DNA from: Pelecanus crispus
Taxonomy: Eukaryota; Chordata; Aves; Pelecaniformes; Pelecanidae
Direction: 5' to 3'
Length of the DNA stretch: 64,000 nt
Assembly: GCF_030463565.1 (NCBI RefSeq)
Contig: NC_134654.1
Span: forward strand, 17,128,202-17,192,201
Shown piece by piece: positions 25,794 through 42,812 of this stretch. The first letter of the stretch is position 1. Each line of letters opens with the position of its first letter. Both the position numbers and the translations under genes were made by a program. Below the pieces are notes generated by a model. It did not search any database. It was not told where the DNA came from and worked only from the letters and a program-made list of their open reading frames with translations.

Positions 25794-25912
25794 CTACATG
25801 ATGGAGCAGGTGAAGCCACAGCACTCCTTGAGCAGGGTGAGGCCCGTTTTGGTCATATATGGTGCAGAGGTTTGCTGCCCCCTGGAAGTCATTTTCTTCT
25901 CTTTGACAGGAG
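25794..25912 (-). CDS. BMERB1-like coding exon 6 (last)
   Basis: Acceptor TTTCCATAG. Residues 154-192 ([12 protein letters not shown]...[17 protein letters not shown]) and the stop TAG at 25796-25794. The [10 protein letters not shown] block corresponds to TGLALIKDCC of BMERB1. Confidence 0.85.
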
Positions 25913-40900: not shown

Positions 40901-42812
40901 TTTAACTCAGCCGTGTGCTTTTCTCTGCCACGGAAAGCAGCACGGGCAGGGGGCATTCAGCCCATCCAAATCAGCCCTTGCTCCACAAGCTCGATAGTGA
41001 GAGCGAAGGTAACCCACTGCCTGGCTCTGGAGCAGCCTTGTCAGAGGCAGGGAGGTCTCCGGCATCCACACTGCCTGGCAGGAAGGACACAAGCTTCCAG
41101 GACTGCCAACACACAGCTGAGCACGCTGGTCCCAAAGGATAACATCATACCCAGATGGGAGAGATCACAACTACAGGCAGCCTGCAAACCACAGCACTGT
41201 ATCCCTGCCAGTGCCCCAGCTGCCTCCTCTAATAAACCACGGAGAAACATGCAGCCTTGGCCCATTGCAGCCAGGGGGGATCTCTCTGGCTGTGTATGTG
41301 CAGCCCTTGGCACAGTCAGCACCACTGGGGCCATGTTAGCCATAGAAAAGACCAGAGTTCATGGGTGAGGTACCCCGGGATGACTTACAGGGGGTATCAC
41401 CAGGGGTGTAGCCCCTCTGCAACACCCTGCTGCTGTGTGCACACTCCCCTGGTCACCTCCTGAGCGCAAGCAGAGCAAGAGGCTGCGTGTGCTCTCTGCT
41501 TCACAGGGTTGGCCTGAGATTTCCTGGGATGGTAGCAAACAGCAGAGCAGCATTCAAAAAACAGACACCGACCGTTGCCACGTTCTCACCCAGCCTGACG
41601 GTCCCCCAGGAGCTGGGAGTTTACAGAAGTGCATTGAACCAGCAAACATCGAAGCCACAACCCTGCTCGCAGGCACCCGAGGGGGGATGCCTGGGCCATA
41701 CCCAGTACCCTGAGTCCATCAAGCATTTGACCCTTTCCTGGACCACCCTGATTGTCACCCAGCTGCTGGAAGCAAAAGATCAGGTGATGAAAGTGCTCAG
41801 ACCCCCACCAAGGGCAAGGTCTCCATCTCCCCCCACCCTGCAGGAGAGATGGGGGGGGAAGGGAGAAGGATACATATTGCTGGGCTGGAAGGCACAAAGG
41901 AGAAGGGCTAAAACTTTGGGCAGCTCACCAGGCAGCTGAGCAGCTTCACGGGAAGCACCCCCACACAGTAGTACCAAGCAGGATGCTGGTGTTTGCTCCA
42001 TCCCTCCTTCCCTGCCTTTCCAGCTGTCTGTCCCTATCCCGCTGGGTGCAAGGGGCTACGTGGGAGCAGAAAGGGATGGGGAAGGGGAGAGGTCGGAGGG
42101 ATGGCATGGCAGAGAGGCTGCAGGAGCCTCCCCTCCCCAGGATGTTGCCCACAGCACAGCATTGGGCCCTCTCCTCCCACCTCAGGGTTGGGGACCCTGC
42201 CCTGGAAAACCCCTCGGTCGGTGCCCCCCCCCCCGCCCACCCTAGGTCGTACTGGAGGAACTGGTCAGAGAGGGGAAAAGGCAGCGAAGGACAGGGTGGA
42301 CACCCCAGCCTCCCGGTCACAGCCATGCCCACAGTCGGGCATGACAGCACAGCGGCTCCGTGCCTCTCCGGGCAGCATCAGCCGGAGGCCGGGCTGCATC
42401 CCTCCTTCTACCAGTTCGCTCCCTCCAGCCATCCCCCCCTTCCCTCCACCCTTCCTCCCCTCCACCCTTCCTCCCCTCCATCCACCCCTTCCCTCTGTCC
42501 GTCTCCCCCCCGCCCCACCCCTCCTGCCCCAGTCCCGACGGTCGCGGCACGGGGGCTCCGGCGGTGCCGGTACCGGTACGGGGAGCACCCGCGGGGCCCC
42601 GTTTGGTGGACAAAGCGGCCGGTTCCCCCCCAGCTCCCGGGGCCCGGGTGCCCGGCGAGTCCCGAAGCCCCCGGGGGATGGGGGGAAAGTTTGGATGGGG
42701 CAGCATCCCTGCCCGTCCCGGTCCCGCCGTGCTCACCTGGCCCCGCGCCGGCGGGCGGCCACCGGGTGGACTCCAGCGATCCGTAGCGGGGGGGGGTCCT
42801 GCTCCCCTCCAT
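25794..42812 (-). CDS. BMERB1-like bMERB-domain protein with C-terminal CaaX box (6 coding exons)
   Basis: Exons in transcript order are 42812-42737, 35961-35841, 30502-30429, 26888-26774, 26641-26568 and 25912-25794: 579 bases, 192 residues. All introns are GT-AG and phases 1, 2, 1, 2, 1 all match. The protein follows human BMERB1 (about 204 residues) from end to end: [65 protein letters not shown] and [10 protein letters not shown]. The bMERB fold (about residues 27-150) is a helical domain that in related proteins binds Rab8-family GTPases. The tail CSIM is a CaaX box of farnesyl type, with two more cysteines just before it. Human BMERB1, as I recall it, ends CNIM. The gene sits between CCDC42 and MFSD6L, where I know of no human gene of this kind; it is probably the ohnolog of BMERB1. 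Rab binding and lipidation are inferred. Confidence 0.88.
26568..26641 (-). CDS. BMERB1-like coding exon 5
   Basis: Acceptor TTTGTCACAG, donor AGAAA/GTAGGT. Residues 129-153 ([14 protein letters not shown]...LQKE). A second, stronger donor (CAAA/GTAAGC, exon end 26601) lies inside the exon in the same phase; its use would remove 11 residues in frame. Confidence 0.78.
26774..26888 (-). CDS. BMERB1-like coding exon 4
   Basis: Acceptor TGTGCTGCAG, donor CTCAG/GTAGCT. Residues 91-128 with [15 protein letters not shown] and [19 protein letters not shown]. Ends in phase 2. Confidence 0.9.
30429..30502 (-). CDS. BMERB1-like coding exon 3
   Basis: Acceptor GTCTCTGCAG, donor TTCCAG/GTAAGG. Residues 66-90, with [18 protein letters not shown], nearly the same as BMERB1. 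Ends in phase 1. Confidence 0.9.
31908..31945. repeat. CAGC/CAGCCAGC short tandem patch
   Basis: Repeated CCAGCCAGCAG words in an intron of the BMERB1-like gene. Low-complexity sequence with no evident function. Confidence 0.75.
35841..35961 (-). CDS. BMERB1-like coding exon 2
   Basis: Acceptor TTCATTTGCAG, donor TACAT/GTGAGT. Residues 26-65 with [12 protein letters not shown] and [12 protein letters not shown], the first bMERB helix. It ends in phase 2, splitting a methionine codon. Confidence 0.9.
37076..37175. repeat. degenerate minisatellite in BMERB1-like intron 1
   Basis: Four diverged units carry the core CTGATTTACACA or a variant of it (GATTTACACA, GGTTTACACA, GATTTACACA, GATTCACACA), at irregular spacing of about 20-35 bases. 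Confidence 0.65.
38156..38243 (+). repeat. 22-bp tandem repeat, four copies, with X-box-like core
   Basis: Four head-to-tail units share GGTTGCTAGGGGACC. Units 1, 3 and 4 contain GTTGCTAGGGGAC, which fits the RFX X-box consensus RYYRYY-N-RRNRAC. Unit 2 has GTTGCTACAGGAC and does not. The array lies in intron 1 of the BMERB1-like gene, about 4.6 kb downstream of its start codon. Confidence 0.9.
39625..40010 (+). mobile_element. old, degraded CR1 LINE fragment
   Basis: Plus-strand sequence still follows the CR1 3' region: AGGAGAGGCTGAGAGA, a block like TTCAACCCAAAGAAGAGAAGG, GATATTAGGAAAATGTTTCTC, CAGAGAGGTTGTGG, AAGGCTGTGAGCAACCTGAT and GTTGGACTTGGTCCC. Many substitutions and small gaps show it to be much older than the other three copies. 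It lies in intron 1 of the BMERB1-like gene. Confidence 0.8.
41528..41634 (+). repeat. left copy of a ~100-bp direct repeat
   Basis: GATGGTAGCAAACAGCAGAG and about 85 further bases recur at 43570-43668 in the same orientation, with a gap of about ten bases in the right copy and scattered differences. I cannot assign it to a known family. Confidence 0.8.
42190..42535. repeat. GC- and pyrimidine-rich low-complexity tract
   Basis: A poly-C run lies near 42224-42234. CTCCACCCTTCCTCCC is repeated twice near 42450-42480, within a long pyrimidine-rich tract on the plus strand, purine-rich in the transcribed sense of the BMERB1-like gene (start of intron 1). Open frames across it come from the lack of A/T-rich stops. 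Confidence 0.75.

Follow-up and report, generated by a model that had tools for sequence, protein, structure and literature searches.

A probable whole-genome-duplication ohnolog of BMERB1 in the MYH10/NDEL1 block of Pelecanus crispus

We analysed a stretch of 64,000 nucleotides from the bird Pelecanus crispus (contig NC_134654.1, denoted C12 below, positions 17128202-17192201; hereafter the window), whose minus strand carries a gene of six coding exons at 25794-42812. Its coding sequence of 579 nt, stop codon included, translates into 192 residues with no internal stops, and all five introns are bounded by GT...AG. The product matches the Pfam family bMERB_dom (PF12130) with 90.9 bits, against a cut-off of 24.6 (E-value 9.3e-26, profile positions 32-134 of 134), and its C-terminus, GFTCSIM, closes with the CaaX box CSIM. 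We consider it very probable that this window gene is a working protein-coding ohnolog of BMERB1 (also known as C16orf45 or MINP), that is, a paralog derived from whole-genome duplication. The original prediction, made from the letters of the window, had described a full-length, in-frame, six-exon relative of BMERB1 on the minus strand, located between CCDC42 and MFSD6L. The structure and the domain match bear this out, and the outer limits it gave coincide exactly with the ends of the coding sequence. The location agrees as well: CCDC42 exons lie to the left and a frame of the MFS_1_like family, which we take to be MFSD6L, lies to the right.

The window's own assembly (1.314 Gb, 310 contigs) was searched for relatives. 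The bMERB profile detected at least 23 exon matches at eight places, a lower bound because only the best candidates were scored, and protein searches identified two of these places as BMERB1-type: the window gene and one other, on contig C11. Searching the genome with the 192-residue protein returned 13 matches, namely its own six exons, four exons of the C11 gene (best E-value 8.9e-11) and three weak matches elsewhere (E-values 0.85-6.5). The nearest relative of the window gene in its genome is therefore the gene on C11, and the matches listed by this search include no further gene of BMERB1 type around the MYH9-type locus of C1. Another bMERB gene is located at C1:59.09 Mb, about 0.95 Mb from a third non-muscle-type myosin locus (C1:60.03 Mb), which may reflect either a remnant of a paralogous set or chance. 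One scan each of two further collections, viral_contigs and genome_contigs, yielded 12 and 172 pattern stretches, respectively, none of which was confirmed as a relative.

The C11 gene is encoded on the minus strand, its exons running from about 11302 to about 11353 kb. Exon 1, found with a human query, is at C11:11352411-11352518; later exons are at 11326.5, 11308.0 and 11304.7 kb, and the last two, 5 and 6, are close to 11303-11302 kb. The product has 204 residues and ends in CCGATQCSIM. Three checks on its identity come from published mammalian oligonucleotides, which translate to IQRLRE and FMMDDIQ (mouse) and GATQCNIM (human) (PMC5380009). The corresponding segments are IQRLRE, FMMDDIQ and GATQCSIM in the C11 gene, and IERIRE, YMMDDIQ and GFTCSIM in the window gene. 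The possibility that the window gene is simply a misplaced BMERB1 was rejected, since the true BMERB1 sits on C11.

The two bird genes follow the same plan. All five introns are common to both in position and phase, each gene leaves exon 1 in phase 1, and the first exons are recognisably related (the C11 version contains RYGAVEETEW); the lengths of the remaining exons are compared in Table 1. The intron plan together with the relatedness of exon 1 indicates that the copy came from a whole gene and not from a transcript. A retrocopy was rejected on account of the retained introns, and chance open frames were also rejected as an account of the window gene. With BMERB1 (2900011O08Rik in mouse) the window gene shares, besides the exon-intron plan, the single bMERB domain and the CaaX tail, but the N-terminus and exons 5-6 have diverged, and the products differ in length. 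Over exons 2-6, the window gene is identical to C11 BMERB1 in 96/166 residues (57.8%) and to human BMERB1 in 95/166, whereas C11 and human BMERB1 share 151/168 (89.9%); in these and all later comparisons the human sequence is a provisional one. At four-fold sites, 18 of 23 differ between the two bird genes, saturation computed from their own compositions predicting 0.78. In a 94-codon core the non-synonymous divergence (dN) amounts to 0.175, with saturation at synonymous sites; the value of pS above 1 in this calculation means no more than that saturation. A recent bird duplicate was rejected on the basis of the 57.8% identity and the saturated synonymous sites.

The same divergence bears on whether the gene is functional. 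A decayed or never-expressed copy, open by chance, would be in keeping with one result: no poly(A) signal (AATAAA or ATTAAA) was found on the minus strand from 25793 down to 24000, i.e. within 1.8 kb past the stop codon. However, all six exons, the five pairs of splice sites and the 192 codons have stayed intact despite synonymous sites being saturated relative to the paralog, the core dN is only 0.175, the CaaX box is kept and a CpG island covers exon 1. We consider a pseudogene highly improbable, and the window gene is presumably expressed.

If the window gene and BMERB1 are ohnologs, their surroundings should be related too, and we found that they are. Four genomic matches to the NUDE_C domain were obtained, and the two that exceed the cut-off are at C12:16.950 Mb, some 0.2 Mb away from the window gene, and at C11:11.247 Mb, some 55 kb away from BMERB1. 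By plain arithmetic, if two NDE loci were placed at random in 1.314 Gb, the probability that each would come to lie within 0.25 Mb of a BMERB1-type gene, and not of the same one, is about 3e-7. To name the NDE and myosin copies, we compared them with solved proteins. The C12 NDE exon is identical to NDEL1 (2v66) in 37/38 residues and scores 73.6 and 61.2 bits with NDEL1 chains versus 59.3 with NDE1; the one on C11 agrees with NDE1 (7e1t) in 39/39 residues (67.1 bits). Non-muscle/smooth myosin tails occur at three places (C12:16.970-16.990, C11:11.223-11.234 and C1:60.03 Mb), these counts being lower bounds (45 rows, with 43 of 168 candidates scored); the remaining rows presumably belong to muscle-type loci. 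The three tail exons on C11 score best with Myosin-11 (378.7 bits vs 311.2 for Myosin-10) and the three on C12 with Myosin-10 (377.4 vs 329.8 for Myosin-11), which places MYH11 about 68 kb from C11 BMERB1 and MYH10 about 164 kb from the window gene. Finally, among 12 Shisa_N rows there is one copy near each block, at C11:11.782 Mb and C12:16.605 Mb, which we take to be SHISA9 and SHISA6, respectively. Four families (BMERB1, NDE1/NDEL1, MYH11/MYH10 and Shisa) are thus paired between the two stretches, with distances of up to about 0.6 Mb. The human genes C16orf45, NDE1 and MYH11 likewise share one interval, 16p13.11 (PMC3630198). Elsewhere on C12, at 15.17-15.54 Mb, there is a run of near-alike myosin tail loci, several with identical scores, presumably the skeletal-type cluster.

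The original prediction had interpreted the window gene as the second whole-genome-duplication copy of BMERB1, lying in the counterpart of the MYH11/NDE1 neighbourhood. Our results support both points: MYH11, NDE1 and BMERB1 are together on C11, MYH10, NDEL1 and the window gene are together on C12, and Shisa genes flank both. A separate BMERB1 is thus present beside MYH11, and the nesting of the window gene inside bird BMERB1 that a recent copy would produce is not seen, C11 BMERB1 being far closer to the human protein than to the window gene. In the scenario that we propose, an ancestral block with one gene each of the non-muscle/smooth myosin, NDE, Shisa and BMERB1 families would have doubled. 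One daughter block would have given rise to MYH11, NDE1, BMERB1 and a Shisa gene (here on C11), the other to MYH10, NDEL1, the window gene and a Shisa gene (here on C12), with human retaining only the first BMERB1. The split would then date to 2R, at the base of jawed vertebrates.

Could the pair be younger? A fast-evolving BMERB1 duplicate of the bird or sauropsid lineage would be compatible with the 57.8% identity, since distance alone might reflect a burst in rate. Yet a bird-only duplication leaves no signal in the alignment: of 166 columns, 92 are shared by all three sequences and 10 by none; C11 and human alone agree in 57, the bird pair alone in 4, and the window gene and human alone in 3, so that there is no excess of residues exclusive to the bird pair. 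Relative to four outgroups, the core of the window gene is also no faster than that of C11 BMERB1, the window-only versus C11-only changes in 94 columns being 1 v 6 with MICAL3, 1 v 4 with MICAL-cL, 3 v 1 with EHBP1 and 3 v 3 with MICAL1. As the window gene moreover resides in the NDEL1/MYH10 block, we consider such a late duplicate highly improbable.

Several observations nevertheless weigh against the explanation that we favour, in addition to the missing poly(A) signal. In a seven-row maximum-likelihood tree, C11 and human BMERB1 were separated from the window gene with only 88/70 support and long outgroup branches, the moderate support being due to the distance of the outgroups; a four-row tree did not resolve. 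The C11 NDE exon scores highest not with NDE1 but with the NDEL1 chain 2v71, which reaches 72.2 bits across 45 residues in spite of two differences, because the NDE1 chain stops after 39 residues; the NDE1 call for this exon is based on identity across the shared residues. Gene order differs as well, being MYH11(+) NDE1(-) BMERB1(-) on C11 and NDEL1(+) MYH10(-) CCDC42(+) window gene(-) on C12, which implies at least one inversion since the duplication. Finally, the age is derived from synteny and a provisional human sequence, within one vertebrate genome. The unlike local order and the dating from a single genome would both suit a regional duplication of a BMERB1-bearing segment in early vertebrates or tetrapods, later scattered; the window gene would then still be an old paralog, though not one from whole-genome duplication. 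We regard this as unlikely, since it is four families that pair across the same two stretches, and since NDE1 and MYH11 are on a published list of whole-genome-duplication ohnologs (PMC3630198).

Under whole-genome duplication, our preferred explanation, the human counterpart of the window gene would have been lost. A figure legend on the bMERB proteins of human mentions C16orf45 as the one protein of this kind (PMC5026484), and a list of 16p13.11 ohnologs comprises NDE1, MYH11, ABCC1, ABCC6 and XYLT1 but not C16orf45, although the latter belongs to the core interval (PMC3630198). That neither of these sources names a human partner is in line with such a loss. PMC4259306 yielded nothing on this block. 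A literature search for a second BMERB1 by name found no paper; automatic annotation of the window gene may exist in databases, which were outside that search.

The features of the window are listed in Table 1. The CpG island over exon 1 is likely the promoter of the window gene. Exon 1 and the island are bracketed by a 74-nt direct repeat (41528-41601 and 43571-43644, 91% identical, 2043 nt apart), and intron 1 contains near exon 1 a pyrimidine-rich repeat tract of the CCCTCCA type (42399-42536). As for the neighbours, six of seven tblastn rows obtained with the CCDC42 query fall in order on the plus strand, the seventh being a chance match (E-value 7.8). Four of the CCDC42 segments were compared with Pfam; one matches DUF4200 (E-value 3.5e-14), and none of the rest yields a match that passes a cut-off. 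The intronless frame on the other side is the one that we take to be MFSD6L. PIK3R5/6-type exons follow beyond the window at C12:17.235-17.261 Mb, in agreement with the gene order of human 17p13.1. Two minus-strand frames, 3142-3684 and 60194-60731, resemble the 3' end of what we take to be the reverse transcriptase of a CR1 long interspersed element (LINE).

Table 1. Features of the window (positions are those of the window; C11 denotes the BMERB1 gene on that contig)
Feature	Position	Strand	Remarks
Coding exon 1	42737..42812	-	76 nt, ends in phase 1, inside CpG island; motif RYGxxExTxW also in C11 BMERB1 exon 1
Coding exon 2	35841..35961	-	121 nt; bMERB domain begins; C11 counterpart 124 nt, phases equal
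Coding exon 3	30429..30502	-	74 nt; C11 counterpart 74 nt
Coding exon 4	26774..26888	-	115 nt; bears the majority of residues that align to Rab site 2 of MICAL1; C11 counterpart 115 nt
Coding exon 5	26568..26641	-	74 nt; bMERB domain ends; C11 counterpart 83 nt, phases equal
Coding exon 6	25794..25912	-	119 nt with TAG; CaaX box CSIM; C11 counterpart 113 nt, also CSIM
CpG island over exon 1	42500..43249	.	GC 0.73-0.81, CpG observed/expected 0.87
CCDC42 exons (neighbour)	10771..15020	+	tblastn with CCDC42 query; DUF4200 on 12082-12306
Intronless major-facilitator frame (MFS_1_like)	50768..52933	-	domain match

What might the window protein do? bMERB domains bind Rab8, 10, 13 and 15, and their high-affinity site 2 is formed by the second half of helix 2 together with helix 3 (PMC5026484). 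Of eight MICAL1 site-2 contacts, the window protein has five unchanged (L83, E102, V113, R116 and D117) and two replaced conservatively (V106 and V120). The MICAL1 numbering assumes a 3-residue tag, under which 12 of 13 mapped positions match the letter in the table of that paper (PMC5026484). Helix 1, which together with the first half of helix 2 makes up the N-terminal Rab site 1 needed for bivalence, has no counterpart, profile positions 1-31 being unmatched: three of eight site-1 residues fall outside the alignment, and among the other five V985 alone is kept (K981 is R; position 978 is A in the aligned chain). Judged by its sequence, the missing site 1 lowers the case for a bivalent protein but not for a bMERB protein, because EHBP1 too has a single Rab site. 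In EHBP1 the CaaX box is required for endosomal localisation (PMC7442826), and with a yeast reporter protein human farnesyltransferase (FTase) gave full modification of CSIM itself (PMC11152559).

Thus, the window protein is probably a farnesylated one-site effector of the Rab8 family. It would be a small adaptor whose bMERB domain is shortened and in which the low-affinity Rab site 1 would have gone with helix 1, while the retained helix 2-helix 3 region would offer the high-affinity site 2 to GTP-bound Rab8-family proteins. A farnesylated CSIM tail might anchor it on endosome or trans-Golgi membranes. Two details fit this prediction less well: the remaining site-2 contact is altered (V1038 corresponds to H110, and BMERB1 has H as well), and CSIM was also about half modified by geranylgeranyltransferase type I (GGTase-I), which makes the type of lipid uncertain (PMC11152559). 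Mouse MINP partially overlaps with transferrin receptor and syntaxin 6 and interacts, directly or indirectly, with tubulin; its knock-down lowers microtubule stability and speeds up migration (PMC5380009). By analogy with MINP in neurons, the membrane-held window protein would link Rab8/10 carriers to microtubule control. CaaX boxes terminate both BMERB1-type bird genes (25794-25808 in the window) and also human BMERB1 (CNIM, from a published primer, PMC5380009). The over-expression construct used for mouse MINP bore a C-terminal Myc tag, which would mask the CaaX box, and the main text of that paper does not contain the term 'prenyl' (PMC5380009).

Among known systems, the layout of a bMERB domain followed by a CaaX box giving endosomal localisation is that of EHBP1 and EHBP1L1 (PMC5026484, PMC7442826), but the window protein lacks their C2 and CH domains and has only 26/94 core identities to EHBP1. 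The helix 2-helix 3 contacts of Rab site 2 in MICAL1, MICAL3 and MICAL-cL are mostly retained, whereas helix 1, Rab site 1 and the monooxygenase, CH and LIM domains of those proteins are absent. Ohnologs retained in some vertebrates and missing from mammals are a known class, and the situation here would follow the same pattern, a paralogous block with one member apparently missing in human.

In mouse, BMERB1/MINP restrains neuronal migration (PMC5380009), and in human C16orf45 is one of nine genes in the core copy-number interval of 16p13.11 (PMC3630198). An ohnolog approach to ranking these core genes picked NDE1, MYH11, ABCC1 and ABCC6 but not C16orf45 (PMC3630198); a list of ohnolog pairs kept in human cannot, by design, reveal a gene whose partner was lost. 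If our interpretation is true, the surviving bird partner means that BMERB1, next to NDE1, also passed through the genome duplications, and birds with two copies and mammals with one offer a natural comparison. It seems reasonably likely to us that BMERB1, from the dosage-sensitive core of 16p13.11, also stems from whole-genome duplication, with a partner that birds kept and mammals lost, and that two prenylated Rab8-family adaptors may share the neuronal migration role in birds. Mammals would then place on one gene a role that birds may split between two.

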